Shown: piece by piece, positions 3,212 through 23,862 of the stretch | Numbering within the stretch: position 1 is the stretch's first letter | Layout: the number at the start of each line of letters is the position of its first letter | DNA from: Bacillota bacterium | Lineage (GTDB): Bacteria; Bacillota; UBA4882; UBA10575 | Reading direction: 5' to 3' | NCBI GenBank assembly: GCA_012839115.1 | Contig: DUNX01000049.1 | Coordinates: forward strand, 1-34,510 | Length of the DNA stretch: 34,510 nucleotides | Made by a program: the position numbers and the translations under genes | Notes under the pieces: generated by a model | What the model was told of the DNA's origin: nothing | Seen by the model: only the letters and a program-made list of their open reading frames with translations | The model's database searches: none

Positions 3212-6139
3212 ATGAAGAGGTTTTTACAAATATTACTTGTGGTGGTTTTCTTTTCCGTATTTATCTTCCCGTGGAGCACAAATATGCAATTGCAGGCGGA
3301 GGCTTCCGATTCCCCCCACTCCGAACTGGTGGAAAGATTGGAAGCCGTAGCTATCGGCAGCCGGGGAGATGATTATTTCGCATACCAGGCACAGTATGAA
3401 GGGTTTCCCAAGCCGGCGCGGGAGATTAAGATCGAGGTGGCCAACTTTAGCCGCGCCAGCCATGGCGTAGAGGTTTTGCAGGATTTTGCCGGCCGTCCCG
3501 GGCGGGCGGTAAAAACTAGTGAAGAAGGGTTTATTGAGTGGAAAGTAAATGTAGACACCCCCGGGCTTTACCAGATTAAGATCGAGTACTACCCGGTCGA
3601 AGGCAGGGGGGCCAGTATTGAGCGGGAGTTGTGGCTCAACGGCGAACTGCCCTTCTTTGAAGCCAGTCAGTTGATTATTAAGAGGGTCTGGACCGATGGC
3701 GGCCAGGTACGGCGGGACAACCGGGATAACGATATCCGGCCCGGGCAGGTGGAGACACCTTTCTGGCGGGAACTTTATTTGGCTGACTATAATACGGGTT
3801 ACTACCCCGAACCATTTCATTTCTATTTCCACGCCGGAGAAAACACCCTCCGTTTTACGGCGGTAAAAGAACCGTTGGTCATCGGCAGCATCACGCTTTG
3901 CCAGAAAAAAGCGGTTCCAACTTATGACGAATATCTCCGGGACCATTTGGCCAAGGGGCGCCGGCCGGTCGAAGGTCAATTCATAAAGGTCCAGGGGGAG
4001 TCGGCCCAATTCCGGTCGGAACCGACCCTTTATGCGATTAATGACCGAACTTCACCGACCACCGAGCCTTACCACCATTCCAAAATTCGCCTTAACGCCA
4101 TTGGCGGGTACCGCTGGAACCTTCCCGGCCAGTGGATTAAGTGGCGTTTTGAGGTGCCGGAGAGCGGGCTTTACAAGATCGTTTTCAAGGCCCGCCAAAA
4201 CTCGGTGCGGGGGTCCTATTGCAACCGGCGGCTCTTAATCAACGGTGAGGTTCCGTTTTTGGAAACCGATAATCTTGAGTTTAGATACAACAACAATTGG
4301 AATAATTATACAATTACGACCGCTGAGGGCGAACCCTGCCTCTTCTATTTGGAAAAGGGCGAAAACGAACTGCATATGGAGGTCACCCTGGGGCGCCTGG
4401 CGGATCTCCTCCGGGCGGTCGAGGACACCATCTTCCAGTTGAACAGGGCCTACCGGAAGATCCTGATGGTAACCTCGGCCAATCCTGATCCCTACCGTGA
4501 CTACCAATTGGATAAATTGATGCCGGATGTGATTGCGCTTTTAGGCAAGCAGGGGGCATTCCTCGATGCGCTGGCCGCGCAACTCCGGGACTACACCGGC
4601 GAACGGGGGACCCAGACAGCCATCCTTACGCAGATGGCCTACCAGTTAAGGGATATGGCCGATAAACCCTATACCATCCACCGGCGGATGAACTCCTTTA
4701 AAGAGAATATCGGCGCTCTCGGCGCCTGGCTCCGGGAGATGAAAGTCCAGCCCATAGATATAGATTACTTTGTTGTCGCCGCGCCCGAACAGAAAATCCC
4801 CCGGGCGGACGCGGGCTTTTTCGGAAAAATGTGGCATGAATTCCGAGGCATGATTGCCTCTTTCTTCGAAGATTACCAGTCCATCGGCGATGTTCATGGG
4901 GGTGAAGCCGTACGGGTCTGGGCGGTAACCGGGCGTGACCAGGCGCAGCTTCTCAAACAAATGATTGACGATACTTTCACCGCACAAACCGGGATCCCGG
5001 TAAATCTCCAGTATATCCAGCAACAGGTCTTGATGCCTGCGGTGGTGGCCGGGCGGGGCCCGGACGTGGCTTCGAATCTTTACCGGAACGACCCGATCAA
5101 TTACGCCATCCGTAACGCGGTGGTGGATCTTACCGAATTCCCCGATTTTTCCGGGGTGGAAAAGCGTTTCCATCCCAGCGCTATCCAACCGTTCCGTTTT
5201 GAAGGCGGTGTTTATGCTCTGCCGGATAACCAAACCTTCCCGGTGCTTTTTTACCGCAGCGATATTCTGGAGGAATTGGGAATTGATGTCCCGGAAACCT
5301 GGGATGACCTTTACCACATCCTGCCGGTTCTCCAAAAAAACCATCTGGAGTTTGGCATCCCCATCTCCGTCCAGTTGCAGGCGGACCCGTATGGTGGTCC
5401 GGAATTAGCCATGCAGTCATATGCTATTTTCCTGTTCCAATGGGGCGGAGAGCTCTACCGTGGGAACGGGATCGCCAGTGCCCTCGATTCTGAAGAGGCG
5501 ATTGGGGCCTTCCGCTTCTGGACCGAATTGTTCCTCAACTACGGCCTCCCGGTATGGTATAACTTCGCCAACCGGTTCCGCATCGGCGAGATGCCACTGG
5601 CTGTACAGGATTACCAGACCTATAACCAGTTAATTGTCTTTGCCCCGGAGATCAGGGGGTTGTGGGGGTTCGCCCCGGTACCCGGGGTCCGGCGCCCCGA
5701 CGGTTCCATCGATCGTTCCGTGGGCTCCAGCGCCATGGCGTCGATGATGATTAAAGCGACCAAAGATAAAGAGGCTTCTTGGGAGTTCTTGAAATGGTGG
5801 ACGAGTGCGGAGACCCAGGAACGGTTTGGCCGGGAGATGGAGACCCTGCTCGGCGCGGCCGCCCGCCACCCGACCGCCAATATGGAGGCGGTTTCCAGCC
5901 TGCCGTGGCCGCTCAAGGATTATAAGGCCCTCATGGACCAGTGGCAATGGGTTAAGGGAATTCAGGAAGTCCCGGGTGGTTATTTCACACCCCGGCATAT
6001 TACCAACGCCTTACGGAAAGTTATTTACCAAAAAGAAGACCCCCGGGAGACCTTGTTGGATTATGTTATTACCATCAATGATGAGTTAACCAGCAAACGC
6101 CTGGAATTCGGCCTTGAAACCCTGGAGGACAGAGAATAA
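3212..6139 (+). CDS. Large extracellular solute-binding protein with carbohydrate-binding-like N-terminal domains
   Basis: 975 residues from the ATG at 3212, which has AGGGGG six bases upstream. Two upstream in-frame ATGs (3197, 3206) lack a well-placed site. A signal peptide ends near residue 31 (AEA). Residues about 45-225 and 245-395 look like two beta-rich modules of the galactose-binding/CBM kind. Each has a phrase of the type 'W(K/R)..V..(P/T)GLY(Q/K)I' and an 'NGE(L/V)PF' motif, suggesting an internal duplication. A helical stretch (about 396-520) follows, then a family 1 sugar SBP domain (about 565-960) with GRGPDVA, FRFEGGVYALPDNQTF and EASWEFLKWWTSAETQERFG. Usual SBPs are 400-450 residues. 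There is no lipobox cysteine. Two permease genes follow directly, so it is probably the binding protein of that importer. The domain reading is by eye; the SBP part is sure. Confidence 0.9.
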   Translation: MKRFLQILLVVVFFSVFIFPWSTNMQLQAEASDSPHSELVERLEAVAIGSRGDDYFAYQAQYEGFPKPAREIKIEVANFSRASHGVEVLQDFAGRPGRAVKTSEEGFIEWKVNVDTPGLYQIKIEYYPVEGRGASIERELWLNGELPFFEASQLIIKRVWTDGGQVRRDNRDNDIRPGQVETPFWRELYLADYNTGYYPEPFHFYFHAGENTLRFTAVKEPLVIGSITLCQKKAVPTYDEYLRDHLAKGRRPVEGQFIKVQGESAQFRSEPTLYAINDRTSPTTEPYHHSKIRLNAIGGYRWNLPGQWIKWRFEVPESGLYKIVFKARQNSVRGSYCNRRLLINGEVPFLETDNLEFRYNNNWNNYTITTAEGEPCLFYLEKGENELHMEVTLGRLADLLRAVEDTIFQLNRAYRKILMVTSANPDPYRDYQLDKLMPDVIALLGKQGAFLDALAAQLRDYTGERGTQTAILTQMAYQLRDMADKPYTIHRRMNSFKENIGALGAWLREMKVQPIDIDYFVVAAPEQKIPRADAGFFGKMWHEFRGMIASFFEDYQSIGDVHGGEAVRVWAVTGRDQAQLLKQMIDDTFTAQTGIPVNLQYIQQQVLMPAVVAGRGPDVASNLYRNDPINYAIRNAVVDLTEFPDFSGVEKRFHPSAIQPFRFEGGVYALPDNQTFPVLFYRSDILEELGIDVPETWDDLYHILPVLQKNHLEFGIPISVQLQADPYGGPELAMQSYAIFLFQWGGELYRGNGIASALDSEEAIGAFRFWTELFLNYGLPVWYNFANRFRIGEMPLAVQDYQTYNQLIVFAPEIRGLWGFAPVPGVRRPDGSIDRSVGSSAMASMMIKATKDKEASWEFLKWWTSAETQERFGREMETLLGAAARHPTANMEAVSSLPWPLKDYKALMDQWQWVKGIQEVPGGYFTPRHITNALRKVIYQKEDPRETLLDYVITINDELTSKRLEFGLETLEDRE

Positions 6140-6162: not shown

Positions 6163-7128
6163 ATGCCGTCGCAACCCATGCAAACCTCGCTTTCCATGCC
6201 ATACAAGAGAAAACTGGCCGAGCGGGGTAGATTAGGAAGATTACTTGCGGAGATTAAGAAGAATAAGGTTTCCTATTTGTTCCTGGCCCCGTACGCCATC
6301 ATCTTTTTGTTTTTTACCGTCCTACCGGTTTTGATCTCCATTGGGTTCAGTTTCACCTATTATAATATCCTGGAACCACCCCAATGGATCGGTTGGCGCA
6401 ATTACATCAACCTGTTTTTGGCGGATGAGGTATTTCTCATCTCAATCAAAAACACCTTTTTGCTGGCGGCGATCACCGGCAGCCTGGGCTATTTTGCTTC
6501 TTTCTTCTTTGCCTGGCTGATCAATGAATTACCGCGGCGGATTAGGCCCCTTTTTGTCCTGGTCTTTTATGCCCCGGCTTTGGCCGGGTACGCTGTTGCC
6601 CAAATCTGGGGCATCCTCTTCAGTGGGGATGCCTACGGCTGGATGAACGGGTTTTTGATGAAGATTGGCTTCATCAGAGAGCCGATTTACTGGCTGACCG
6701 ACCCCAACTACATGCTGCCTGTCTTGCTCGTGGTCGTATTATGGATGAGCCTGAGCCATGGCTTTCTGGCTTTCGTCGCCGGCCTGCAGACTGTTGACCG
6801 CAGCCTCTACGAGGCCGGCTATACCGACGGGATCAGAAACCGCTGGCAGGAGCTTTGGTATATTACCCTCCCGTCAATGCGGCCACAGCTAATGTTTGGC
6901 GCGGTGATGTCGATTACGTCCTCCTTTGCCATCCATGATGCTTTGGTCCCGTTGGTCGGTTTTCCCAGTACGGACTATGCGGCTCATACCGTTGTCTCCC
7001 ATCTTGTCGACTACGGTACCTTCCGGTTTGAAATGGGATACGCCTCGGCCATTGCCACCGTGTTGTTCCTGGTAATGGTCGGGACCAACAAGATTGTCCA
7101 AAGATTGTTGAGAAAAGTGGGGCAGTGA
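6163..7128 (+). CDS. Sugar ABC transporter permease, MalF/UgpA type
   Basis: 321 residues with six predicted membrane helices; the first starts near residue 38 (YLFLAPYAIIFLFF). The EAA loop that docks on the ATPase is at residues 217-236 (EAGYTDGIRNRW... ending in TLP), with a Gly-for-Ala change at its third position. The start ATG has a GGGAG site seven bases upstream. It begins 23 bases after the large SBP gene and ends four bases before the partner permease, so all three are surely one operon. It forms a heterodimeric inner-membrane channel with the next gene. No ATPase is encoded nearby; MsmX/UgpC-like ATPases shared between sugar importers are commonly encoded elsewhere in related genomes. 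Confidence 0.95.
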   Translation: MPSQPMQTSLSMPYKRKLAERGRLGRLLAEIKKNKVSYLFLAPYAIIFLFFTVLPVLISIGFSFTYYNILEPPQWIGWRNYINLFLADEVFLISIKNTFLLAAITGSLGYFASFFFAWLINELPRRIRPLFVLVFYAPALAGYAVAQIWGILFSGDAYGWMNGFLMKIGFIREPIYWLTDPNYMLPVLLVVVLWMSLSHGFLAFVAGLQTVDRSLYEAGYTDGIRNRWQELWYITLPSMRPQLMFGAVMSITSSFAIHDALVPLVGFPSTDYAAHTVVSHLVDYGTFRFEMGYASAIATVLFLVMVGTNKIVQRLLRKVGQ

Positions 7129-7132
7129 GAAC

Positions 7133-7999
7133 ATGAAGATACTAAGACCAAGTAATCTCAGTCGTTCGGTTGGCGGGGACCTCCTCAACCTGTTTTTCCT
7201 GGTTTTGTGTGGTTTCCTGATGGCTTTGCCTTTGCTTTATACGATTTTCCAAGCATTGAAACCGCTGGACGAGATCTTTATCTTTCCACCCCGGTTTTAT
7301 GTGCGCAACCCGACACTGGATAACTTTGTGCAGCTCCTGGTAATGATGGGGGAATCGTGGGTGCCGTTTTCCCGTTATTTCTTTAACACCATCTTTGTCA
7401 CTGTTGCCGGTACCTTCGGCCATGTCATCATTGCGTCCATGGCCGCGTTCGTCCTTTCGAAGCATAAGTTTCCCGGACGAAACCTCTTCTTTAGCGTTGT
7501 CATTCTGGCTTTGATGTTTTCCTATCATGTCACCCAAATCCCCAACTATTTAATTATGGCCCGGATCAATTGGGTCGATACTTACCTGGCGCTCATCGTC
7601 CCCTACTTCTCGTATCCGCTGGGGTTGTTCCTGATGAAACAGTTTATGGAACAGATCCCCGACTCGCTGCTGGAGTCGGCCAGAATTGACGGGGCCGGCG
7701 AATTCAGGATTTTTTGGCAGATCGTAATGCCGTCGGTCAAACCAGCCTGGTTAACCCTGATTATCTTTATCTTCCAGCAACTCTGGACGATGCAAGGGGG
7801 AGTCTACATTTACAGTGAGCAACTGAAGACCCTCTCTTATGCCTTTAGCCAGATTCTCATAGGCGGGGCCATCACCATTGCCCGGGCAGGGGTAAGCGGA
7901 GCCGTAGGCTTGCTAATGATGATCCCCCCGATTGTGCTCTTTATTATTACCCAGAGCAATATTATGGAAACCATGGCCACTTCAGGTATTAAGGAGTAA
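7133..7999 (+). CDS. Carbohydrate ABC transporter permease, MalG/UgpE type
   Basis: 288 residues, six predicted membrane helices. A canonical EAA loop lies at residues 181-200 (ESARIDGAGEF... ending in VMP). The N-terminal phrase 'LPLLYTIFQALKPLDEIF' is typical of MalG-type subunits. It starts four bases after the MalF-like gene and is followed 12 bases later by the NHL-repeat gene. Its ribosome binding site is weak, so it is probably translated by coupling to the upstream gene. Role: second half of the inner-membrane channel served by the large SBP. Confidence 0.95.
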   Translation: MKILRPSNLSRSVGGDLLNLFFLVLCGFLMALPLLYTIFQALKPLDEIFIFPPRFYVRNPTLDNFVQLLVMMGESWVPFSRYFFNTIFVTVAGTFGHVIIASMAAFVLSKHKFPGRNLFFSVVILALMFSYHVTQIPNYLIMARINWVDTYLALIVPYFSYPLGLFLMKQFMEQIPDSLLESARIDGAGEFRIFWQIVMPSVKPAWLTLIIFIFQQLWTMQGGVYIYSEQLKTLSYAFSQILIGGAITIARAGVSGAVGLLMMIPPIVLFIITQSNIMETMATSGIKE

Positions 8000-8011: not shown

Positions 8012-9544
8012 GTGAACGCCAAATTAATCCATTGTTTAGTGCTGGCGCTGATTATTGCCGGTTGCTTCGCCTGCCTGCCGCCGGCAGTCCAGGCGCGGCT
8101 ACCCTACCATAGTTACACGTATGATTATTGGGGTGATGTCGTCTATTCCCCCGCCGCTTACCTGCCAAACCGTATAATTACCGGGGAAGACCTGGGGATT
8201 GGGGACTTGAGAACCCCTACGGATATTTTTATCGGTAAGGACGGTAAAATCTATATCCTTGATGCGGGGAACGGGCGGATTGTTGTCACCAATGACCGTT
8301 GGGAACTGGTCCGGGTGATCGACGGGTTTGAGAACAACGGCGTCCCCGACGGGTTTAACAACCCCAGCGGGATCTTTGTGACGGAAGAAGGCCATATTTA
8401 CGTGGCCGACACCGACAACAACCGTTTGGTGGAATTGGACCCGGCCGGGAATTTTCTCCGGGAGATCGGCCCGCCGGAATCCGATATCATCCAAGAGAGT
8501 TTTATTTATCAACCGACCAAACTGGTGGTAGACCGCGCGGGGCGGATTTATGTGGTGGCGCGTCATATGAACCAGGGTTTAATTGAACTGACACCGGACG
8601 GTCTTTTCCGCAGTTATATGGGGGCCACCCGGGTTGCCTGGAATCCGGTGGATTATTTCTGGAAAATGATCGCCACCCGGGAGCAACGGGAAAGGATGGC
8701 CCTCTTTGTCCCAACCGAATACAATAACCTCTGTATTGATGAGGAAGGTTTTATCTACGTAACCACCAGCGCTTTGAATGAGTGGGATATCCAACGGGCG
8801 ATTGGCGCCAGAAGCGAAGATGACCGTTATGCGCCGGTGCGCCGTTTGAACCTGATGGGTGATGATATTTTGCGTCGCCGGGGGTATTTCCCGCCGGTTG
8901 GGGATATCTTAATCGCCCGGAAAGGCTCGGTGCGCGGCCCGTCAATGCTGGTGGATGTGGCTGTTGATGACGAGTTCAGGATTTACAGTGTCCTGGACCG
9001 GCGCCGCGGCCGGATCTTCACGTATGACAGTGAAGGCAACCTCCTGTACATCTTCGGCGCCATCGGCGAGCGCTTCGGCAACTTCCGGAACCCGGTGGCC
9101 TTCGATTATCTTGGCGATAATATACTGGTCCTGGATTATGAGGCCGGTACGGTGACCGAGTTCGCAGTCACCGCCTATGGCCGGTTGATCCGGGAAGCGG
9201 TCCGCCTGCATTTTATCGGAAAGTATAATGAAGCGGCCGCGTGCTGGGAAGAAGTCCTGCTTCAGAACGCCAATTTTGAAATGGCCTATGTGGGAATTGG
9301 CCGTGCTCTTTTGCGGCAGGAAAAATATGAAGAGGCGCTGAAAAACTTTAAATTGGGCAACCACCGTAAATACTACTCCCGGGCCTTTTATTATCACCGG
9401 CGGGAAGTGATCGGCAGGAATTTCGGGCTGATCGTCGGGGTCCTGGTCGCCTTCGTACTTGCGCTTTATGTTATCGGTAGAGTACGGGAGAAAGGCCGGA
9501 AAAGCGCCTACGGGGAGTACCAAAGCGAGGTTGAAGAGATATGA
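8012..9544 (+). CDS. NHL-repeat protein with TPR segment and C-terminal membrane anchor
   Basis: 510 residues from a GTG start with GGGGGTAGGAG just upstream. The N-terminus is a signal sequence; it contains IAGC, a possible lipobox at Cys18, and also a signal peptidase I-like site (VQA). Residues about 60-200 and 305-390 carry NHL-type beta-propeller repeats (for example GKIYILDAGNGRIVV, GHIYVADTDNNRLVEL). Residues about 395-465 form TPR-like helices (GKYNEAAACWEEVL, EKYEEALKNF). A membrane helix at about 473-491 and a short charged tail end the protein. Propeller and TPR would therefore face outside the inner membrane. Its stop overlaps the start of the YIP1 gene (ATGA), so the two are translationally coupled. 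Function unknown; a scaffold or sugar-sensing role beside the importers is only inference. Confidence 0.88.
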   Translation: MNAKLIHCLVLALIIAGCFACLPPAVQARLPYHSYTYDYWGDVVYSPAAYLPNRIITGEDLGIGDLRTPTDIFIGKDGKIYILDAGNGRIVVTNDRWELVRVIDGFENNGVPDGFNNPSGIFVTEEGHIYVADTDNNRLVELDPAGNFLREIGPPESDIIQESFIYQPTKLVVDRAGRIYVVARHMNQGLIELTPDGLFRSYMGATRVAWNPVDYFWKMIATREQRERMALFVPTEYNNLCIDEEGFIYVTTSALNEWDIQRAIGARSEDDRYAPVRRLNLMGDDILRRRGYFPPVGDILIARKGSVRGPSMLVDVAVDDEFRIYSVLDRRRGRIFTYDSEGNLLYIFGAIGERFGNFRNPVAFDYLGDNILVLDYEAGTVTEFAVTAYGRLIREAVRLHFIGKYNEAAACWEEVLLQNANFEMAYVGIGRALLRQEKYEEALKNFKLGNHRKYYSRAFYYHRREVIGRNFGLIVGVLVAFVLALYVIGRVREKGRKSAYGEYQSEVEEI

Positions 9545-10164
9545 AATACCTGGACAGCCTGAAGTTTTCGCTTTACGCAATTTTTCACCCCTTCAAGGGT
9601 TTCTGGGACCTGAAACACGAGAAAAGAGGGAGCATCTCGGCGGCCTTGACCTTTCTTGTGCTGCTGATTGTCACCTATATTTTGCGGCGGCAATACACGG
9701 GTTTTATTTTCAACGAGAATGACCCGAAAGAGCTGAATGTTTTCATTGAGATCATCAGTGTCCTCCTGCCCTTTTTCCTCTGGACCACAGCCAATTGGGC
9801 TATAACCACTTTGATGGAAGGGGAAGGAAGCTACAGGGATATCGTGATCGCCACCGCCTATGCCTTGGTCCCGCTCATCCTTATTAACCTCCCGTTGATC
9901 CCCTTCAGCAGGATCATTAATATGGAGGAGGGGGCCTTTTATTTCTTCTTTACCTCTGTTTCCGTGCTTTGGAGCGGGGTCCTGATCCTGGCGGGGTTAT
10001 CGGTCACCCACCAATACACCATGGGGAAGTCTGTCTTTACCAGCCTCCTGTCAGTGGTGGGAATGGGTTTGATGATCTTTATTGGCTTATTGGTTTTCAG
10101 CCTGTTACAGCAGATGATTAGTTTTGTCTATACAATATACCGGGAAATTGCATTTCGACTTTAA
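9541..10164 (+). CDS. YIP1-family five-helix membrane protein
   Basis: 207 residues. Five hydrophobic segments lie at about 30-50, 68-90, 100-125, 131-154 and 165-198, the pattern of bacterial YIP1-domain proteins. A soluble N-terminus carries 'FHPFKGFWDLKHEKRGS', which resembles the family's usual opening. It overlaps the NHL-TPR gene by four bases and ends 18 bases before the DUF5696 gene. The three are therefore co-transcribed and probably act together at the inner membrane. No catalytic motif is visible. The biochemical role of bacterial YIP1 proteins beside sugar importers is not known to me. Confidence 0.85.
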   Translation: MKYLDSLKFSLYAIFHPFKGFWDLKHEKRGSISAALTFLVLLIVTYILRRQYTGFIFNENDPKELNVFIEIISVLLPFFLWTTANWAITTLMEGEGSYRDIVIATAYALVPLILINLPLIPFSRIINMEEGAFYFFFTSVSVLWSGVLILAGLSVTHQYTMGKSVFTSLLSVVGMGLMIFIGLLVFSLLQQMISFVYTIYREIAFRL

Positions 10165-10182: not shown

Positions 10183-12801
10183 ATGAAAACCCGATCTTTT
10201 ATGGTGATTGCCTTTATAATTGTCTTGGTGGCCGGCGCCGGAGGTCTTCTCTTCCGCCCTGCCACTGACATCGCTGCGGAAGAGGGTTTGCCGGCGCCTG
10301 CCGCCGGCGGAGAAACGCCCGCCGGCAATTCGCCGGTAACAGGGGGCGCGCCACCGGTTTTGGACGCCCTGGAAAAGGTGGCGGAGAATGAATTTCTCGC
10401 CCTCTATTTCTCGGAAAAAACCACCGAAGTGGCGGTACTGAAGAAAAAAACCGGTGAAATATGGTACAGCAACCCTCCCGGCCGGGCAGCGGATCCGGTG
10501 GCCGTGGGGATTAACAAAACCAAACTGGGATCGCAATTGAGCATTACTTTCTACACCCCGCACGCCCACAGAAGGACGATGGATAACGCCAGCGAGAGTA
10601 TTGAGTACGGGCAATTTGAAGCCGAGAAGCTGGCAAACGGGGTAAAAGTTACTTATACCATTGGCAAAAAAGAAGAAGTCTATATTATCCCGGAAAAAAT
10701 CACCGGCGAACGCTTTGATCAGGTTTCGGAGAAGATTAGCTCCTCGCAACAAAGGAACTTGCAACGGCGCTATATCAAAATTGACCTGAATGAAGTGGAG
10801 GACCGCAGGGAAAGGCAGAAACTCGTGAGTGAGCACCCGGCATTGCGCCGGCATGACGTGGTCTATGTCCTGCGGCCGAATTTGAGCCTCTTTGTCCTGC
10901 GTCAACTGGACGAGATTTTTGTGGAGGCCGGGTATACGCTGGAAGAAGTCAACGAAGACCACAGGGAAAACGAAGTGCCCGAGAAGGAAGTACCCAAGGA
11001 TGTTTTTACAATTCCGCTTTATTACACCTTGGACGGGGAGAACCTCATGGTGACCATACCCAGTAATGAAGTGGTCTATCATTCTTCCTACCCGTTGACT
11101 GAGATTAAAGTCCTGGAGTTCTTTGGCGCCGCCGGGCCCGGGACCGAGGGGTATGTTTTCGTTCCCGACGGGTCCGGGGCCCTAATCCATCTGAATAACG
11201 GAAAAACCCGGCACCGTGCATATTACGGCCCCGTTTACGGGCGGGATTACGCCCGGCAATACACGGAGATTTTTGAGGAACGCGAACAGGTTTATCTCCC
11301 GGTCTACGGCATGAAACAGGGTGACCAGGCCTTTTTTGCCATTATTGAAAAGGGTGACGCCCTGGCTACGATCATTGCTGATGTCGCCGGCAGGATCCAT
11401 TCTTATAATACGGTCTGCGCGGAATTCAGCTCCGTTGCCCACGGCACGATTGACCTGACCACACTGGCCGGGAATAACGTGATCAAGGTATACCAGAGGC
11501 GGATTACGCAAGGGGATTTCCAGATCCGTTATGCCTTTTTGAGCGGGGAGAAAGCGGATTATGTGGGCATGGCCGAGTATTACCGGGATTATTTGCTCAA
11601 GAAAGGCGTTTTAAAAACCGAGCGTACCGCCGGTGCAGTACCGTTCTACCTTGAAATGGTGGGCGGAATTGACAAGATCAAACCGTTCCTCGGGGTTCCG
11701 GCCCGCCGGATTGAGGCGTTGACCACTTTCAGCGAAGCCAGAGAGGTGGTTGACAGCCTGCTGGCGTCGGATGTTACCAACCTTAAGCTGCGTTATACCG
11801 GGTGGTTTAACGGCGGGCTCCGCCAAGGTTTGCCGAGTAGTATTAATATTTTAAATGAACTCGGCGGACGGGCCGGCTTCACCCGGCTGGCCAGATATTT
11901 AGAAGCGAACAATGTGGAATTCTACCCATCCGTTACCTTTGAATACGCCAAAAAAGCCGGGATCTTGAGGGGCTTTAACACGCGGACCGCCGCCTCCCGT
12001 TTTATCAACCAGGATGTCGGTGTCTTGTATGATATCAACTTCGCAACCTATCAGGAAGACAAGGAAAAACGGGCGCAATACATGGTCTGTCCTTCCCGGA
12101 TCGGGCGGTATGTAGACCGTTTTTTGCGCCGGTACCGGTCTTTGGATGTTAAAGGTCTTTCTTTGACCACCATGGGACAGGATTTGAACGCCAATTACCG
12201 GGAGAAACGGCTGGTCGACCGGGCCCAGGCCCAGCAGTATATCGGGGGAGAACTGGCGAAGATGACCGGTTCCGGATACCGGTTGCTGGCCGAAGGGGTT
12301 AACGTCTACGCCCTGGCCCATACAGCGCATATCCTCAATATGCCGCTGGATTCCAACCACTACCTGATTACCGACGAAGGTATCCCCTTCTACCAGATCG
12401 TCACCTGCGGGCATGTTGATTATGCCGGGGAACCGGTTAATCTCGCCGGTGATCCGCGGCGGGCGTTTTTGAAAACCATCGAAACCGGTGGCGGTCTTTA
12501 TTTCACCTGGATTTACCGGGATAACTCCCTGATTAAAGAGACCGATTACGACTACCTGTATTCGGTAGAATATAAAAAGTGGTTCGATCAGGCGGTGGCA
12601 TTTTACCGCGAAGCCCAGGAAGTACTGGGGGATATACGGGGGCAACGCATTATTGACCACCGGCGGTTGGCCGATAATGTCTATAAAGTAACCTTTGAAA
12701 AGGGGAAAACCATCATGGTTAACTACAACCGGGAACCGGTTACTGTGGAAGGAATAAGACTGGCGGCTGAAAGTTATCATGTGTTACGGGAGGGCAGGTG
12801 A
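10183..12801 (+). CDS. DUF5696 protein, probable exported glycosidase-like enzyme
   Basis: 872 residues with a signal sequence or N-terminal anchor (about 7-24) followed by a Pro/Ala/Gly-rich linker to about residue 55. The beta-rich N-terminal half (about 60-400, with 'FFGAAGPGTEGYVFVPDGSGALIH') and an alpha/beta C-terminal half (about 480-800) match my memory of DUF5696 proteins, which are found beside sugar ABC transporters in Paenibacillus-like genomes and look like glycoside hydrolases of TIM-barrel type. Acidic residues suited to catalysis occur (e.g. near FEYAKKAG and TDEGIPFYQIV), but I cannot assign catalytic ones. The start ATG has AAGGAAGGGG upstream. It ends in TGA at 12799, just before the next permease. 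Substrate unknown; a polysaccharide or its oligosaccharides is inference from context. Confidence 0.85.
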   Translation: MKTRSFMVIAFIIVLVAGAGGLLFRPATDIAAEEGLPAPAAGGETPAGNSPVTGGAPPVLDALEKVAENEFLALYFSEKTTEVAVLKKKTGEIWYSNPPGRAADPVAVGINKTKLGSQLSITFYTPHAHRRTMDNASESIEYGQFEAEKLANGVKVTYTIGKKEEVYIIPEKITGERFDQVSEKISSSQQRNLQRRYIKIDLNEVEDRRERQKLVSEHPALRRHDVVYVLRPNLSLFVLRQLDEIFVEAGYTLEEVNEDHRENEVPEKEVPKDVFTIPLYYTLDGENLMVTIPSNEVVYHSSYPLTEIKVLEFFGAAGPGTEGYVFVPDGSGALIHLNNGKTRHRAYYGPVYGRDYARQYTEIFEEREQVYLPVYGMKQGDQAFFAIIEKGDALATIIADVAGRIHSYNTVCAEFSSVAHGTIDLTTLAGNNVIKVYQRRITQGDFQIRYAFLSGEKADYVGMAEYYRDYLLKKGVLKTERTAGAVPFYLEMVGGIDKIKPFLGVPARRIEALTTFSEAREVVDSLLASDVTNLKLRYTGWFNGGLRQGLPSSINILNELGGRAGFTRLARYLEANNVEFYPSVTFEYAKKAGILRGFNTRTAASRFINQDVGVLYDINFATYQEDKEKRAQYMVCPSRIGRYVDRFLRRYRSLDVKGLSLTTMGQDLNANYREKRLVDRAQAQQYIGGELAKMTGSGYRLLAEGVNVYALAHTAHILNMPLDSNHYLITDEGIPFYQIVTCGHVDYAGEPVNLAGDPRRAFLKTIETGGGLYFTWIYRDNSLIKETDYDYLYSVEYKKWFDQAVAFYREAQEVLGDIRGQRIIDHRRLADNVYKVTFEKGKTIMVNYNREPVTVEGIRLAAESYHVLREGR

Positions 12802-12806
12802 GACCG

Positions 12807-16412: not shown

Positions 16413-17753
16413 ATGGTCGTCATTACGAAACAGCGAAAATCCTTCATTACCTGCCTGGGATTGACGGCGGCTCTGTTGGTCCTGGCCCTGGCCGGCGCAG
16501 TTGCCGGCAGCAAGGAGAAATATGATTTTGGCGGCCGGACGGTTACATATTCCGCCTGGTGGGAATTGCGCCCGCAGCCCGGTGCTTCGGTAGAGATGGA
16601 CCGGCAGATCCGGCGGGTGACCGAGGTGGAAAAGAAATACAACGTAAAGATTGATTACGCAAATATCCCCTGGGGGGAATACCTGGCCCGGTATATCACG
16701 ACGGTGATGGCCGGGGACAGCATGGCCGACATCGCCTGTGTTGAAGTCAACTGGTTTTACCCCACACTGCTGTTGAATAATTTCTGCCTTCCCATCTCCT
16801 CACTGGGTGTCTTTGATTTTAATGACGAAAAATTCCAACGCGAAACCGTCACCTTTGGTGAGTACAACGGAGAAATTTATTGCTACGAAATCGGTAATGT
16901 ATACCCCCGGGGTGTGGTCTTTTTCAACAAGACCATGTTTGCGCGGGAAGGCATCACCGACATGTACGACGTCTTCTTTAACTATGAGTGGACCTGGGAT
17001 AAGATGCTGGAATACGCCAAAAAATTGACCAGGGATACCGACGGCGACGGTATTATTGACCAGTGGGGCCTCGGCGGCGGGACCGGCCGGGTTTGGCGGG
17101 GCTTTATCATCTCCAACGGCGCCAATTTTATTGATATTTCCGACAAAAGCAAGCCCCGTTTTGCCTTGGGCGACCCCAACGCCATCGCGGCTCTCCAGGC
17201 CTACCAGGATTTCACCCTCAAACACCAGGTAATCCTGGTTCCGCCGGAGGGCGCGCCGTGGGATTATGCAATCGAGGCTTTTATCGAAGGAAAAGTAGGG
17301 ATGCTTGTCGGGCAGATCTACAAGCTCCACAGCTTGAAAACAAAAATGCAAGATGAATACGGCGCAGTTTTATTCCCGATGGGCACCAGCATGAAGGAGT
17401 ATACATCGGAGCTTACCGGTCATTTTGTAAAAGTGATGCCAATCACCATAAAAAACCCCAAAGAAGTGGCGATAGTGGAAGATGCCATGACCGAACCGCA
17501 TCCGGATGAAGACCCCGACGACTGGCGGGAGTATTACGAGATGCGGATGACCGATGAAGAGTCCATCGAGACGGTGAAGATGATCTGGGATAAACAACTC
17601 AGTGTCTTTAATCTCCAATCGGCCTTTGATGTCATGGATATCTTCTATACCTTGGAATGGGAACTCCAGACCGGCGCCAAAACCCCGCAGGCGGCGGTGG
17701 AAGAGTATGCCCAGGAAGCGCAGATGCGGATTAATGATTCGCTAATCTTCTAA
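16413..17753 (+). CDS. Extracellular solute-binding protein, array copy 2 (mosaic)
   Basis: 446 residues from the ATG at 16413, but AAAGGGG abuts that codon directly. An ATT at 16422 would have a normal nine-base spacing and gives an N-terminus that aligns better with copies 1 and 4, so the true start may be non-standard. The signal peptide has no lipobox and probably ends near AGA/VAG. Calcium-loop-like DTDGDGIID begins at residue 208. The ends of the protein match group A (copies 1 and 3). The middle, from about 16919 to 17210 (REGITD, TGRVWRGFIISNG, LQAYQDF), matches copy 4 of group B, suggesting gene conversion. It probably delivers a related ligand to the same permeases as copy 1. Confidence 0.94.
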   Translation: MVVITKQRKSFITCLGLTAALLVLALAGAVAGSKEKYDFGGRTVTYSAWWELRPQPGASVEMDRQIRRVTEVEKKYNVKIDYANIPWGEYLARYITTVMAGDSMADIACVEVNWFYPTLLLNNFCLPISSLGVFDFNDEKFQRETVTFGEYNGEIYCYEIGNVYPRGVVFFNKTMFAREGITDMYDVFFNYEWTWDKMLEYAKKLTRDTDGDGIIDQWGLGGGTGRVWRGFIISNGANFIDISDKSKPRFALGDPNAIAALQAYQDFTLKHQVILVPPEGAPWDYAIEAFIEGKVGMLVGQIYKLHSLKTKMQDEYGAVLFPMGTSMKEYTSELTGHFVKVMPITIKNPKEVAIVEDAMTEPHPDEDPDDWREYYEMRMTDEESIETVKMIWDKQLSVFNLQSAFDVMDIFYTLEWELQTGAKTPQAAVEEYAQEAQMRINDSLIF

Positions 17754-17870: not shown

Positions 17871-19196
17871 ATGAAAAATTGGTTTCGTGTAATTGTTATT
17901 GGCGGATTGGTTCTGCTCATATTGGCGGTTACCATTACGGCCGGGGGAAAAGAGGAGAAACATAATTTTGGCGGGCGGACAATTACTTACTCCGCCTGGT
18001 GGGATTTGCGCCCGGATCCCGGGGTTTCCCTGGAGATGGAGCGGAAGGCCCGGCGGGCTGCTGAGGTGGAAAAGAAATATAACGTAAAGATCGATTACGT
18101 CAATATCCCCTGGGGGGAATACCTGGGCAGGTACATCACGACCGTCATGGCCGGCGACCGCATAGCGGATATCGCCATTGTGGAGGCTGAATGGTTTTAT
18201 CCCACGCTTTTGATGAACAATTTCTGTACAAACTTGAGCGATTTAGGGGTATTTGATTTTACCACTGAAAAATTTGAACCGGTTACGGTAAATCTCGGCA
18301 CTTACCGCGGAAAGGTCTACGCTTATGAAACCGGCCGGCTCTACCCCCGGGGCGTCCTTTTCTGGAACAAGAGTATGTTCGCCCGGGAAGGCCTGCCCGA
18401 TTTATATGAGACATTCTTTAACTATGGGTGGACCTGGGACAAAATGCTCGAATTTGCAAAAGCATTGACAAAAGACACCGACGGAGACGGTGTAATTGAC
18501 CAGTGGGGGATTGGTGGTACCGCCCAAAGGCTGGAACGGGGTTTTGTCATCTCCAACAACGCTCATTATATAGATATCTCCGATTTTGACAATCCAAAAT
18601 TCGGCCTGACCCACGCCAATGCCATCGATGCGCTCCAGGCGCACCAGGACTTTATCCTCAAGCACCAGGTGGTATTGATGCCGCCGGAGGGGGCGCCTTG
18701 GGATTACAACGTTCATAGCTTTATCGAAGGCAAACTCGGGATGCTGGTCGGGCAGTTTTGGAAGATCAACGACTATATGAAAGGGAACATGCAGGACGAA
18801 TACGGGATCGTTTTATTCCCGATGGGACCGAAAGCGAAGGAGTATACCTCTGAATTGACGGGACACAATTTCAAGACTATGCCGGTATCGGTGAAGAACC
18901 CCAAAGAAGTGGCGATTGTGGAGGATGCCATGACCGAACCGTTCCCGGATGAAGGCCCCGACGACTGGCGGGACTACTACGAATTAATGGTCACCGACGA
19001 AGAGTCGATCAAGACTGTCGAGATGATCTGGGAGAAACAGCTGGGTGTCGTTAATCTCCAATGGGCATTCGGGATCAACGATATCTTCTACACCCTCGAG
19101 TGGGAGGTAATGACCGGGAATAAAACGCCCACGGCCGCTGTGGAAGAGTTTGCACAGGAAGCCCAGATGCGGATTAATGACGCCTTGTCATTCTAA
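17871..19196 (+). CDS. Extracellular solute-binding protein, array copy 3
   Basis: 441 residues. The signal sequence lacks a cysteine; cleavage is possible near ITA. Group A sequence: WWDLRPDPG near the N-terminus, DTDGDGVID loop at residue 202, acidic PFPDEGPDDWRDYYE near the C-terminus, and the EAQMRINDAL signature. It is closest to copy 1 by eye (AQRLERGFVISNNAHYID against AQRLERAFVISNNAHYID). The gap from copy 2 is 117 bases with only weak secondary structure and a run of seven G at 17852-17858. AAGGG lies close before the ATG. Confidence 0.94.
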   Translation: MKNWFRVIVIGGLVLLILAVTITAGGKEEKHNFGGRTITYSAWWDLRPDPGVSLEMERKARRAAEVEKKYNVKIDYVNIPWGEYLGRYITTVMAGDRIADIAIVEAEWFYPTLLMNNFCTNLSDLGVFDFTTEKFEPVTVNLGTYRGKVYAYETGRLYPRGVLFWNKSMFAREGLPDLYETFFNYGWTWDKMLEFAKALTKDTDGDGVIDQWGIGGTAQRLERGFVISNNAHYIDISDFDNPKFGLTHANAIDALQAHQDFILKHQVVLMPPEGAPWDYNVHSFIEGKLGMLVGQFWKINDYMKGNMQDEYGIVLFPMGPKAKEYTSELTGHNFKTMPVSVKNPKEVAIVEDAMTEPFPDEGPDDWRDYYELMVTDEESIKTVEMIWEKQLGVVNLQWAFGINDIFYTLEWEVMTGNKTPTAAVEEFAQEAQMRINDALSF

Positions 19197-19252: not shown

Positions 19253-20599
19253 ATGCAAAGAAAACGGAAGCTCTTTTTACTCACCCTGATTGTGCTGATC
19301 TTTATTATGCTGGTGGCCGCCGTTGTGGCCAGCGGGAAAGCGAAGAAGTACAATTTTGGCGGCCGGACAATTACTTGGGCAACCTGGTGGGAAGAGGCTA
19401 AACCGGTGGCTGGGAGGTCGGAACGGGAGGATCTGCGGCTAAAGCGGGAGGTTGAGGTCGGGAAGAAGTACAATGTGAAATTTGATTATCTAACTGTTCC
19501 CTGGGGAGAGTTTATGGCCAAATATATAACCACCGTGATGGCAGGGGATGCCATGGCCGAGATCGTCAGTGTCCAGACCGACTGGTTCTACCCGACGCTG
19601 CTCTTGAATAATTTCTGTATGAACCTGAGTGAGCTGGGTGTCTTTGACTTTAAGGCCCCCAAATTCCAGAAAGAAACCATAGACTTTGCCACCCTGGACG
19701 GATCGGTCTACGGGTACGAGATTGGAAGGATCGAGCCCAGAGGGGTAATCTTCTTTAACAAGACCATGTTCGAGCGGGAAGGGATCACCGACATCTACGA
19801 TACGGTTTTCAACTACAAATGGACCTGGAATAAAATGCTGGAAGTCGCCAAAAAACTGACCAGGGATACCGATGGCGACGGGGTCATCGACCAGTGGGGA
19901 CTCGCCGGCGCGACCGGCCGGGTCTGGCGGGGCTTTATTATCTCCAATGGTGGTAATTTCATCGATATTTCCGATAAGTGGCACCCCCGGTTCAGCCTGG
20001 GCGACCCGGCTGCTCTTGAAGCCCTCCAGGCCTATCAGGACTTTATCTTAAAAGAAAGAGTTATCATGATCTCACCGGAAGGTTCGCCATGGGACTATCC
20101 GGTCCAGGCTTTCCTCGACGGGAAAGTGGGCATGCTTGTCGCGCAGATGTGGAATATTGATAAAATGCGTGACAACATGAGCGACGAGTACGGGGTCATC
20201 CTGTTCCCCATGGGACCGCGGATGAAAGAATACACCTCCGAAGCCACTCTGCACCACTTCAAGGTCTTCCCGGTCACGGTCAAGAACCCGAAAGAAGTGG
20301 CGATTGTGGAAAACGAGATGACCGAGCCCTACAAAGTCGGCGGCGAGTTGCTGTTTATGGAAGAAAAGAACGAAGAATGGCTGGAAATGCGGGTGACCGA
20401 CGATGAGTCGATCCAGATCGTCCAGATGATCTGGGATAAACAGAACAGCATCTTCAATCTGCAGGAAGCCTTTGGGGTCATGGATATCTTCTACACAATC
20501 GACGACGAACTCCAGAAAGGGAACAGCACGCCGCAAGCGGCGGTAGAAGAGTACGCCCAAGAAGCCCAAATGCGGATTAACGATTCCTTGATGCTTTAA
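19253..20599 (+). CDS. Extracellular solute-binding protein, array copy 4
   Basis: 448 residues, no lipobox cysteine, cleavage possible near VVA. First copy of group B: WWEEAKPVAG then RSEREDLRL near the N-terminus, GRIEPRGVIFFNK, DTDGDGVID loop at residue 205, and YKVGGELLFMEEKNEEWLE in place of the acidic stretch of group A. The GAGGAGGG site six to seven bases before the ATG is the best in the array. The gap from copy 3 is only 56 AT-rich bases. A 284-base structured gap follows. Its middle third is shared with the mosaic copy 2. Confidence 0.95.
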   Translation: MQRKRKLFLLTLIVLIFIMLVAAVVASGKAKKYNFGGRTITWATWWEEAKPVAGRSEREDLRLKREVEVGKKYNVKFDYLTVPWGEFMAKYITTVMAGDAMAEIVSVQTDWFYPTLLLNNFCMNLSELGVFDFKAPKFQKETIDFATLDGSVYGYEIGRIEPRGVIFFNKTMFEREGITDIYDTVFNYKWTWNKMLEVAKKLTRDTDGDGVIDQWGLAGATGRVWRGFIISNGGNFIDISDKWHPRFSLGDPAALEALQAYQDFILKERVIMISPEGSPWDYPVQAFLDGKVGMLVAQMWNIDKMRDNMSDEYGVILFPMGPRMKEYTSEATLHHFKVFPVTVKNPKEVAIVENEMTEPYKVGGELLFMEEKNEEWLEMRVTDDESIQIVQMIWDKQNSIFNLQEAFGVMDIFYTIDDELQKGNSTPQAAVEEYAQEAQMRINDSLML

Positions 20600-20669
20600 T
20601 CGCCGGTTACATGCAGCGATCGATCTCGCAACCTGTTTTGTAACCCTGGTAATCTGTTTCCTTTGTGAT

Positions 20670-20703
20670 GGCCGGAAGAGCGGAGCTAGACGCTCTTCCG
20701 GCC
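20670..20703. other. 13-bp perfect hairpin, gap 4/5
   Basis: GGCCGGAAGAGCG and its exact complement around an 8-base loop. No T-run follows, so it is more likely a stabilising or processing element than a full terminator. The counterpart at 22297-22332 has a different stem sequence but the same geometry. Confidence 0.8.
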
Positions 20704-20707
20704 CTTA

Positions 20708-20777
20708 GGCGCCGGGTTTGCCCTGACTTTGCTCGTCCACGCCGTCTTTCGCGTGACGCATTCGCAAGCCCGGCGCC
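20708..20777. other. Long-range hairpin 2, gap 4/5
   Basis: The 14-base arms at 20708-20721 and 20764-20777 pair with one G-U wobble and enclose about 42 bases. The counterpart in the next gap (22340-22349 with 22398-22407) pairs perfectly over 10 bp, with the wobble replaced by an A-T pair. Confidence 0.65.
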
Positions 20778-20883
20778 GGTATTTTCCAGACCGTTCCCGG
20801 AGAAGGATCCGTTTCCACTATGCCGGTCATTGCCTGCAGAGGGCCGGCTTATGGGAAGGCAGAGAGAAAAAGGGGGGTTACAC

Positions 20884-22224
20884 TTGAAGAAAAACAAGTT
20901 GTTCCTGGTGATTTTAGCGGGATTAATCTTTGTTATCCTGGCGGTTGCCGTGGCCGCCGGCGGGAAAGAGAAGAAACATGATTTTGGCGGCCGGACCATT
21001 ACTTATGCGACCTGGTGGGAATATAAACCGCAGGCAGGCCGGTCGGAACGGGAGGATCTGCGGCTGCAGAGGGAAGCGGAGGTCGGGAAGAAGTATAATG
21101 TAAAAATTGATTACCTGAATGTTCCCTGGGGAGAGTTTATGGCCAAATATATCACCACCGTGATGGCAGGGGATGCCATGGCCGACATCGTCAGTGTCCA
21201 GGTTTGTTGGTTCTATCCGACACTACTGATGAATAATTGCTGTCTCTCCCTATCCTCTTTGGGCGTTTTTGATTTTGACGCGCCCAAGTTCCAAAGGGAG
21301 AGTATAGAATTTGCCACCCTGGACGGGGAGGTCTACGGCTACGAGACTGGGAGGATCGAGCCCAGAGGGGTGATCTTCTTTAATAAATCCATGTTTGAAC
21401 GGGAAGGACTCCCCAATTTGTATGAGATTTTCTTCAATTACAAGTGGACCTGGGATAAGATGCTCGAGTTTGCCAAGAAAGTAACGAAAGATACCGACGG
21501 CGACGGGATTGTTGACCAATGGGGGATTGGCGGCGCTACCGGCCGGCTTTGGGGCGGTTTCGTTTTCTCCAATGATGCCCATTTTGTCGATATCTCCGAT
21601 AAGTGGAATCCCCGGTTCAGTATGGGCGATCCTAATACCCTTGAAGCCCTCCAAGCTTTTCAGGATTTTGCCATAAAACACGAGGTTATGCTGGTTAAAC
21701 CGGAAGGCGCCCCATATGACTACCCGGTTCAGGCCTTCCTCGACGGGAAATTGGGGATGCTTTGCGCTCAAGTTTGGAACCTTGACAAGATGCGGGACAA
21801 CATGAACGATGAGTACGGGATAGTTTTATTCCCCATGGGACCACAGATGAAGGAATATACAGCGGAGGCTACCGGCCACCACATCCGGACCTTCCCGGTG
21901 ACCGTCAAGAACCCGGAACAGGTGGCCATCGTGGAAGATGCCTTGACCGAACCTTATGAGCTCGACGGAGAACTGGCGATTATAGAGGAGAAAAATGAAG
22001 AATGGTTGGAAATGCGGGTAACCGACGAAGAATCAATCCGGGTGGTCCAGATGATCTGGGACAAACAGTTGAGTGTCTTTAATTTGCAGGAAGCCTTTGG
22101 GATCATGGATATCTTCTATACCCTCGAGTGGGAGTTGGAACACGGGATCAAAACGCCACGGGCGGCGGTGGAAGAAGTTTCCCAGGAAGCCCAGATGCGG
22201 ATTAGTGATTTCTTGTTGCTTTAG
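20884..22224 (+). CDS. Extracellular solute-binding protein, array copy 5
   Basis: 446 residues from a TTG at 20884. This start is set by the site AAAGGGGGG just upstream and by near-identity of the following bases with copy 6, which starts at the matching TTG. The open frame reaches back to 20665 but that part is the structured gap. The signal sequence MKKNKLFLVILAGLIFVILA has no lipobox. Group B features: DTDGDGIVD loop at residue 203 and YELDGELAIIEEKNEEWLE. It has more cysteines than its relatives (VCW, NNCC, MLC). It ends in EAQMRISDFLLL, a slight change of the array signature. It arose with copy 6 by a tandem duplication that includes the gap. Confidence 0.94.
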   Translation: MKKNKLFLVILAGLIFVILAVAVAAGGKEKKHDFGGRTITYATWWEYKPQAGRSEREDLRLQREAEVGKKYNVKIDYLNVPWGEFMAKYITTVMAGDAMADIVSVQVCWFYPTLLMNNCCLSLSSLGVFDFDAPKFQRESIEFATLDGEVYGYETGRIEPRGVIFFNKSMFEREGLPNLYEIFFNYKWTWDKMLEFAKKVTKDTDGDGIVDQWGIGGATGRLWGGFVFSNDAHFVDISDKWNPRFSMGDPNTLEALQAFQDFAIKHEVMLVKPEGAPYDYPVQAFLDGKLGMLCAQVWNLDKMRDNMNDEYGIVLFPMGPQMKEYTAEATGHHIRTFPVTVKNPEQVAIVEDALTEPYELDGELAIIEEKNEEWLEMRVTDEESIRVVQMIWDKQLSVFNLQEAFGIMDIFYTLEWELEHGIKTPRAAVEEVSQEAQMRISDFLLL

Positions 22225-22518
22225 TCGCCGGTTACACCGTGTGGTCCCGGTAACCATCTCGTTAACCTGGTATCTCTGGTTTTTTGTCCCATTTAGCAGC
22301 AGGGAAAGCGGGGCAACGCGCTTTCCCTGCTGTCAAGTGCCGGGTTTGCCTTGTCTTTCCTCGTTCGCGCCATCTTTTTAGCGTGACGAAATTCCCAGCA
22401 AACCCGGGGCGGTATTTTCCGGACCGTTCCCGGAGAAGGAGCCATTTTCATGATACCGGTTATTACCTGCAGAGGACCGGAATAGGGGAAGGCACAGGAA
22501 AAAGGGGGAGGTTAAATT
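22225..22518 (+). repeat. Structured gap between SBP copies 5 and 6 (repeat unit 2)
   Basis: 294 bases, the second copy of the unit at 20600-20883. It keeps both hairpins (22297-22332 and 22340-22407), the GACCGTTCCCGGAGAAGGAGCC block and the final GGGGGAGG site of copy 6. Conservation of pairing despite changed stem bases suggests the RNA structure matters. Confidence 0.75.
22297..22332. other. 14-bp perfect hairpin, gap 5/6
   Basis: CAGCAGGGAAAGCG pairs with CGCTTTCCCTGCTG around an 8-base loop (22311-22318). Same loop length as the hairpins at 16360 and 20670. No T-run follows. Confidence 0.8.
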
Positions 22519-23862
22519 TTGAAGAAAAACAAGTTGTTCCTGGTGATTTTGGCAGGATTAATCTTTGTGATCCTGGCCGTTGCCATGGTGGCCGGCGGGA
22601 AAGAGAAGAAACATGATTTTGGCGGCCGGACCATTACTTATGCGACCTGGTGGGAATATAAACCGCAGGCAGGCCGGTCGGAACGGGAGGACCTGCGGCT
22701 GCAGAGGGAAGCGGAGGTCGGGAAGAAGTATAATGTAAAAATTGATTACCTGACTGTTCCCTGGGGCGAGTTTACGGCCAAATATATCACCACCGTAATG
22801 GCGGGGGATGCCATGGCCGACATTGCCAGCGTGCAGATTGACTGGTTCTATCCGACGCTGCTCCTGAATAATTTCTGTCTCAACCTTTCCTCGCTGAATG
22901 TCTTTGATTTCAGTGCCCCCAAGTTCCAAAGGGAGACCGTGGACTTTGCCGTCCTGGATGGAGATGTTTATGGCTACGAGATCGGGAGGATCGAGCCCAG
23001 GGGGGTAATTTTCTTTAATAAGACCTTGTTTGAGCGGGAAGGGCTGCCCAACCTGTATGAGGTCTTTTTCAATTATGAGTGGACCTGGGATAAGATGCTC
23101 GAGTTTGCCCAGAAAATAACGAAAGATACCGACGGCGACGGGATCATTGACCAATGGGGGATTGGCGGCGCTACCGGCAAGGTTTGGTGCGGTTTGCTCC
23201 TCTCCAATGACGCCCATTTTATTGATATCTCCGATAAAAGGAACCCCCGGTTCAGCATGGGCGACCCCAATGCCATTGAAGCCCTCCAGTTCTTCCAGGA
23301 TTTGGCCGTAAAATACAAGGTTATGCTGGTTAAACCGGACGGCGCCCCGTATGACTACCCGGTCCAGGCCTTCCTCGACGGGAAAATGGGGATGCTTTGC
23401 GCCCAGTTTTGGAATATCGATAAGATGCGGGACAACATGAACGATGAGTACGGGATAATCCTCTTCCCAATGGGGCCAAAGATGAAGGAGTATACGGCGG
23501 AGGCTTCCGGCCATCACCTCAAGACCTTCCCGGTAACCGTCAAGAACCCGGAACAGGTGGCCATGGTGGAAGATGCTTTGACCGAACCCTATAAAATCGG
23601 CGGCGAACTGCTGCTTATGGAAGAAAAGAACGAAGAATGGCTGGAAATGCGGGTGACCGACGAGGAGTCGATCCAGATGGCCCAGATGATCTGGGATAAA
23701 CAGCTGAGCGTCTTTAACTTCCAGGCCGCCTTCGGGATCATGGATATCTTCTACACCATCGAGTGGGAGTTGGAGCACGGGCACAATACACCCCGGGCGT
23801 CGGTGGAAGAGTATTCCCAGGAAGCCCAGATGCGGATTAATGACTATCTGTCCCCGTTATAA
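22519..23862 (+). CDS. Extracellular solute-binding protein, array copy 6
   Basis: 447 residues from a TTG start with GGGGGAGG seven bases upstream. The first roughly 75 codons are almost identical in DNA to copy 5, while later parts differ more (NNFCLNLSSLNVFDF, TGKVWCGLLLSND). No lipobox. DTDGDGIID loop at residue 203; YKIGGELLLMEEKNEEWLE; C-terminus EAQMRINDYLSPL. It is the last gene of the array, and a 420-base gap with no obvious terminator follows. It most likely binds a ligand related to that of copy 5 and passes it to the second permease pair. Confidence 0.95.
   Translation: MKKNKLFLVILAGLIFVILAVAMVAGGKEKKHDFGGRTITYATWWEYKPQAGRSEREDLRLQREAEVGKKYNVKIDYLTVPWGEFTAKYITTVMAGDAMADIASVQIDWFYPTLLLNNFCLNLSSLNVFDFSAPKFQRETVDFAVLDGDVYGYEIGRIEPRGVIFFNKTLFEREGLPNLYEVFFNYEWTWDKMLEFAQKITKDTDGDGIIDQWGIGGATGKVWCGLLLSNDAHFIDISDKRNPRFSMGDPNAIEALQFFQDLAVKYKVMLVKPDGAPYDYPVQAFLDGKMGMLCAQFWNIDKMRDNMNDEYGIILFPMGPKMKEYTAEASGHHLKTFPVTVKNPEQVAMVEDALTEPYKIGGELLLMEEKNEEWLEMRVTDEESIQMAQMIWDKQLSVFNFQAAFGIMDIFYTIEWELEHGHNTPRASVEEYSQEAQMRINDYLSPL

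Follow-up and report, generated by a model that had tools for sequence, protein, structure and literature searches.

A widespread Bacillota cluster of two CUT1 importers and a conserved NHL-TPR/YIP1/DUF5696 trio with a possible role in presenting glycan fragments

What task falls to three conserved envelope proteins that are encoded between two carbohydrate importers? The question is raised by a contig from a Bacillota bacterium (DUNX01000049.1, assembly GCA_012839115.1; contig C9 of a 2.35 Mb draft genome in 148 contigs), whose whole length of 34,510 nucleotides is here called the window. On its plus strand, a gene for a large solute-binding protein (SBPL) and the permease genes PermA1 and PermB1 are followed by genes for an NHL-TPR protein, a YIP1 protein and a DUF5696 protein (together, the trio), then by PermA2, PermB2 and six paralogous solute-binding protein (SBP) genes that end at 23862 (Table 1). 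Relatives of DUF5696 are encoded on at least 582 matched stretches of a public genome collection, often in several copies per genome and beside different plant-wall hydrolases; despite this breadth, the trio has no assigned function. No paper on the system or mentioning DUF5696 was found in a search of literature outside subscription journals, which does not prove absence. The cluster is genuine and widely distributed and, as a variant of carbohydrate importer clusters, apparently undescribed; its transport core, being CUT1, is not categorically new. At a probability of about 0.5, it is read here as a system for importing oligosaccharides derived from polysaccharides, probably of plant type, in which CUT1 importers served by a shared MalK/MsmX-type ATPase act with a conserved membrane trio that presents glycan fragments. 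Import is well supported, whereas the role of the trio is one that we infer.

Linkage of the trio to the importers

A search for DUF5696 covered 398 genomes of the phylum and supplied 56 loci, and 80 named loci from the public collection brought the total to 136. The relatives occur in Paenibacillus, Cohnella, Lachnospiraceae, Mahella, Lederbergia, Gracilibacillus, one Spirochaetaceae metagenome-assembled genome and others. Neighbours were counted at loci with enough flanking sequence, and some apparent gaps in these neighbourhoods are artefacts of a simple open reading frame (ORF) caller that chose antisense ORFs. A permease pair lies downstream of DUF5696 in 126 of 127 loci, NHL-TPR adjoins it in 119 of 125, and SBPL lies upstream in 100 of 113. 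Strong matches to DUF5696 and to this YIP1 protein fall in the same 37 of the 398 genomes, all of which also encode SBPL. Two genomes (G101 and G149) in which SBPL appeared without DUF5696 were rejected as counter-examples, the contigs concerned being too short at 3.8 and 4.3 kb. The 37 genomes represent about 20 genera; they are not fully independent, but this spread makes common descent alone a weak explanation of the linkage. The coupling of the trio to glycan importers, proposed from the window alone, is thereby borne out, and a check for neighbourhoods in which the trio is unlinked to permeases gave the opposite outcome. Because the arrangement recurs in more than 100 loci of many families, it is far from chance.

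The spacing of the genes agrees with this linkage. From SBPL to PermB2 the intergenic distances are 23, 4, 12, -4, 18, -4 and 66 bp, the negative values marking overlaps of 4 bp at 9541 and 12798, so that the overlaps and short gaps described earlier for the trio (8012-12801) are confirmed. Distances then widen to 155, 70, 117 and 56 bp between PermB2 and SBP-4. A single transcript through the end of the SBP array is likely. Terminator-like patterns in the window numbered 33, near the 26 +/- 5.6 expected from shuffling, and promoter and terminator scans gave about the shuffled background.

The two importers are not equal partners of the trio. Three genomes (G060, G132 and G160) carry at least seven copies of YIP1, and hence of the trio, against three strong copies of PermB1, and loci without SBPL-PermA1-PermB1 retain NHL-TPR/YIP1-DUF5696-PermA2-PermB2-SBP1. 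Together, the copy numbers and the trio-only loci show that PermA2/PermB2 with its SBP is the primary partner of the trio, and SBPL-PermA1-PermB1 is a second, separable block. The original prediction had set the trio between two importers as one composite; the coupling stands, while the constant partner narrows to PermA2/PermB2/SBP1. Across 63 complete loci, mean pairwise identity is 64% for PermA1 and for PermB1, 49% for SBPL (57% for its SBP domain), 50-51% for PermA2/PermB2, 47% for YIP1, 43% for NHL-TPR, 37% for DUF5696 and 32% for the small SBP (SBP1). This ranking marks the first importer as the constant part of the cluster and the small SBP as its variable part.

Within the trio, the NHL-TPR protein has two hydrophobic segments, of which the single C-terminal transmembrane helix spans aa 471-489 by hydropathy. 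Its NHL domain is recognised as PF01436 (E 1e-16), and its profile matches in the PDB are NHL propellers and TPRs. The YIP1 protein matches PF04893 (E 6e-16, 59.2 bits against a threshold of 28.6) and is polytopic by hydropathy. Long NHL-TPR proteins proved to be NHL-TPR/YIP1 fusions in all 49 of 49 cases, which supports contact between these two proteins and only these; joining all parts of the cluster into one physical machine would go beyond what the fusions indicate.

Fold and catalytic positions of the DUF5696 protein

The AlphaFold2 (AF2) model of the DUF5696 protein (predicted local distance difference test, pLDDT, 88.8), together with Foldseek, gives a layout of an N-terminal hydrophobic segment, a low-confidence linker, a beta-sandwich, a TIM barrel and a C-terminal beta domain. 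Over the full length, the best PDB match is the 3,6-anhydro-D-galactosidase DagB (5OPQ; E 9e-33, target TM-score, TMt, 0.70), and the enzyme NagBb of glycoside hydrolase (GH) family GH129 (5WZN; E 2e-26, TMt 0.74) is also matched, with GH101 next. A profile search with DUF5696 retrieved the same proteins (DagB, NagBb and GH101 relatives), with a similarity that is weak but real. Weak matches to DUF5696 elsewhere, in ORFs of about 480-710 aa, were rejected as members, being mostly amylase-like, branching-enzyme-like or other TIM-barrel proteins.

The catalytic residues reported are Asp486 and Glu517 in DagB and Asp435 in NagBb, and further acidic residues beyond the usual pair are also essential in DagB (PMC5698469). 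In both NagBb (Glu478) and DagB, an Arg stands 24 residues ahead of the acid/base Glu, a spacing equal to that from R680 to position 704 in DUF5696. The counterpart of the NagBb nucleophile Asp435, taken from the beta-4 motif, is placed at position 663. This placement draws on fold, motif and spacing, and two GH129-like relatives (at loci L171 and L198) were used solely for it. One of them (L171, 418-3033, plus strand) is an 871-aa GH129-like protein with an additional N-terminal region, in which the beta-4 acid is present and Val occupies the mapped acid/base position.

Among 137 DUF5696 members, position 663 is acidic in 88 (Asp in 87) and Thr in the window copy, and position 704 is acidic in 68 (Glu in 36, Asp in 32) and Glu in the window copy; both positions are acidic in 48. 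D329, D355, D731 and E767 are conserved in at least 94% of members, W541, R680 and N753 are invariant, and N707 is nearly so, so that some kind of conserved site is present. The default reading of DUF5696 as a plain glycoside hydrolase was rejected since conservation is missing at the positions mapped to the GH129 catalytic residues, and most members, including the window copy, probably lack the GH129 mechanism. The suggestion that this cluster degrades its glycan finds no support here: the locus is without a canonical hydrolase, and its DUF5696 protein is without the conserved catalytic pair. DUF5696 thus shares with GH129 (NagBb), DagB and the GH101 relatives a full-length fold and the invariant Arg; it differs from GH129 and DagB in having about 12% identity, no conserved nucleophile or acid/base, and an inserted helical segment at aa 171-262.

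A model of glycan presentation and its rivals

The favoured reading, import of oligosaccharides with the aid of the trio, can be laid out in three layers. The variable importer would consist of PermA2/PermB2 and LplA-type SBPs, here six, each probably for a different oligosaccharide. The trio would add an extracytoplasmic NHL propeller/TPR protein that is anchored in the membrane and forms a scaffold with YIP1, and DUF5696, either tethered to the membrane or secreted, whose window copy probably binds glycans instead of hydrolysing them. Held near the membrane by this scaffold, DUF5696 would bind fragments along with the SBPs, and the trio would probably capture them or present them to PermA2/PermB2. 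The constant importer, SBPL with PermA1/PermB1, might work in parallel or in series, and both permease pairs would be driven by a single MalK/MsmX-type ATPase encoded elsewhere. A stronger version makes the cluster a single physical uptake machine, in which NHL-TPR/YIP1 bridges two unequal CUT1 importers, and the former glycoside hydrolase DUF5696 and the SBP bearing carbohydrate-binding modules (CBMs) act in series to pass long oligosaccharides to exchangeable, substrate-specific SBPs; this version is tentative and, in our judgement, doubtful.

The surroundings of the cluster in related genomes are consistent with a role in glycan uptake. The 94 ORFs downstream of related loci include 13 of GH10, seven of GH30, six of GH26, five each of GH43 and GH38, and others, and paralogous loci add GH28 and GH31. 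A core that stays constant while the enzymes vary fits a general chassis for several polysaccharides. Since the window's own genome encodes nine GH10 proteins, fragments of xylan type are the most likely first guess for the substrate. The same genome encodes Omp85, which makes a diderm cell probable, and the trio should then face the periplasm and meet oligosaccharides instead of intact polysaccharide. Glycoside hydrolase genes, common in the flanks of relatives, support the earlier assignment to a polysaccharide, with fragments as the expected cargo. Paenibacillus is monoderm, and the presence of the same trio there implies that the trio should be able to work without an outer membrane; a role in handling fragments at the inner membrane suits both kinds of host.

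Several observations weigh against this reading of the trio as a presenter of fragments. Gene order is no proof of contact, and the matching of SBPs to permease pairs is a presumed one. Mirror-tree correlations are high for every pair of genes and thus discriminate little. No glycoside hydrolase was recognised by Pfam in 3197-23862, and the substrate is a guess. Finally, about a third of DUF5696 members, those acidic at both mapped positions, may be enzymes. The last point leads to the possible but unlikely alternative of a new GH129-related family in which DUF5696 acts as an exo-glycosidase, trimming oligosaccharides at the membrane before import by means of other catalytic residues. The full-length GH129/GH101-like fold, the near-invariant site, the retained E704 of the window copy and the dependence of DagB on acidic residues outside the usual pair (PMC5698469) all speak for such an enzyme; the scatter of acidic residues at positions 663 and 704 is unlike a working hydrolase family, and the adjacent hydrolases already change with the substrate.

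Propellers and TPRs commonly mediate interactions, a short tail of the membrane protein reaches into the cytoplasm and AraC-type regulators are encoded nearby, all of which would suit a trio that detects a glycan or the occupancy of the transporter and relays this to the AraC regulator, or that positions both importers as an assembly factor. This is improbable, given that neither the tail nor the YIP1 part has a known signalling domain and that the trio travels with permeases, not with one type of regulator. It is more improbable again that the locus holds two ordinary co-regulated CUT1 importers and a trio with an unrelated task such as envelope maintenance. The absence of SBPL-PermA1-PermB1 beside 13 of 113 trio loci, and its lower copy number than the trio in some genomes, would agree with independence, but the near-perfect linkage of trio and permeases, their co-occurrence across about 20 genera, the translational overlaps on both sides of the trio and the many glycoside hydrolases in the flanks argue against it. 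If the trio is instead an obligate importer accessory, as the presentation model holds, three families now labelled 'unknown' would be explained, glycan-import loci of Bacillota would gain a marker, and DUF5696 would offer a case of a glycoside hydrolase fold perhaps turned into an uptake component.

Importer components and flanking genes

All features named above were found at about the positions first assigned to them, including two permease pairs, the trio and seven SBPs, one large (980 aa) and six of about 445 aa; the start codons of two genes were corrected. SBPL begins at ATG 3197, the earlier start at 3212 being an internal ATG. The SBP-5 ORF was called from GTG 20665, and TTG 20884, which matches its paralogue, is the probable start, leaving flanking gaps of about 285 and 294 bp.

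Table 1. Features of the importer cluster and its probable regulator, with window positions and the evidence for each.
Feature	Position	Strand	Evidence
AraC-family regulator, cupin/AraC_binding and HTH_18	2008..2967	+	Pfam; 229 bp upstream of SBPL
SBPL: signal peptide, two CBM35/CBM6-like beta-sandwiches, helical arm, C-terminal SBP_bac_1	3197..6139	+	Pfam, AF2, Foldseek
PermA1, CUT1-type permease, UgpA-like	6163..7128	+	Pfam/NCBIfam; EAA motif present
PermB1, CUT1-type permease, UgpE-like	7133..7999	+	Pfam/NCBIfam; EAA motif present
NHL-TPR: signal peptide, NHL beta-propeller, TPR-like repeats, C-terminal transmembrane helix, short basic tail	8012..9544	+	Pfam, hydropathy
YIP1 family polytopic membrane protein, about five transmembrane segments	9541..10164	+	PF04893, hydropathy
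DUF5696 protein	10183..12801	+	PF18952, E 5e-209, 696 bits against gathering threshold 25.6
PermA2, CUT1-type permease	12798..13793	+	Pfam; EAA motif; permease pair follows DUF5696 (126/127 loci)
PermB2, CUT1-type permease	13860..14858	+	Pfam; EAA motif; permease pair follows DUF5696 (126/127 loci)
SBP-1, possible lipobox LVAC	15014..16342	+	SBP_bac_1; sequence
SBP-2	16413..17753	+	SBP_bac_1; 87% orthologue in sister species G100
SBP-3	17871..19196	+	SBP_bac_1; 87% orthologue in G100
SBP-4	19253..20599	+	Alignment; 88% orthologue in G100
SBP-5	20884..22224	+	SBP_bac_1; 94% orthologue in G100; start corrected
SBP-6	22519..23862	+	SBP_bac_1; 90% orthologue in G100

The SBP_bac_1 domain was found in SBPL, at aa 585-875 by Pfam, and in the small SBPs tested. 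The closest PDB profile match of the SBPL domain is Lin1841 (5YSB). The N-terminal half of SBPL has no match in Pfam, and thus none to a Pfam CBM. Its AF2 model (pLDDT 90) consists of the two beta-sandwiches and the helical arm, for which the best domain-sized Foldseek matches include CBM35 2W1W (TMt 0.72) and CBM6 2CDP. These modules, predicted from the model to bind glycan, share their beta-sandwich fold with the CBM35/CBM6 modules of plant-wall hydrolases, from which they differ in being fused to a solute-binding protein and in lacking that Pfam match. Six SBP paralogues (15014-23862) are unusually many for a single permease pair. Where the comparison with sister species G100 is complete, they have one-to-one orthologues at 87-94% identity, against 58-85% between paralogues, and this excess of orthologue over paralogue identity suggests that distinct specificities have been kept.

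All four permeases belong to the BPD_transp_1 family and keep the EAA coupling motif. The genome encodes a single OB_MalK ATPase (374 aa, on contig C121, outside the locus), so that a shared ATPase is likely and this protein is the candidate to serve these importers. A TOBE_2 ATPase on contig C141, whose neighbours are a GH10 gene and an iron/sulfate-type permease, was rejected, not being of the expected MalK type. The GH10-like protein of that neighbourhood (L179, G000:C141:29000-33000), adjacent to the TOBE_2 ATP-binding cassette (ABC) ATPase and the iron/sulfate-type permease, has an additional N-terminal domain. The CUT1 importers LplA-LplB-YtcP and UgpAE, with their shared MsmX, resemble the window locus in SBPs, in permease pairs with EAA motifs and in an ATPase encoded outside the locus; the window locus differs in its unequal permease pairs, its SBP with two CBM-like modules, its six SBP paralogues and its obligate trio. 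With Gram-positive polysaccharide utilization loci the window locus shares an importer and a regulator in one cluster, joined in many of its relatives by glycoside hydrolase genes, whereas the window cluster itself has no recognised hydrolase gene. We know of no described Gram-positive locus of this kind with the NHL-TPR/YIP1/DUF5696 trio or with a second permease pair. The AraC-family protein is the probable regulator of the operon, judging from its adjacency and from related loci, many of which also have an AraC-type gene.

Further genes flank the cluster. Two genes upstream of the operon, 276-1457 (minus strand) encodes a 393-aa signal-peptide protein with a porin-like C-terminus (...VEIGFW), which is present as a single copy in the genome and has no Pfam or NCBIfam match. 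Downstream, the overlapping genes at 24283-28017, for GldF-like ABC-2 permease, ABC_transp_aux and DUF4340 proteins, start 420 bp past the last SBP and look like a separate transport set. At 28127-28912 (minus strand) lies a gene for a 261-aa signal-peptide protein with a weak CBM_4_9 match (E 5e-4) and a hydrophobic segment at its C-terminus. The remainder, 28967-34510, belongs to either a type IV pilus or a type II secretion system: a PilQ-like secretin gene (minus strand) lies there with genes for a GspE/PilB-like ATPase and a GspF-like protein.

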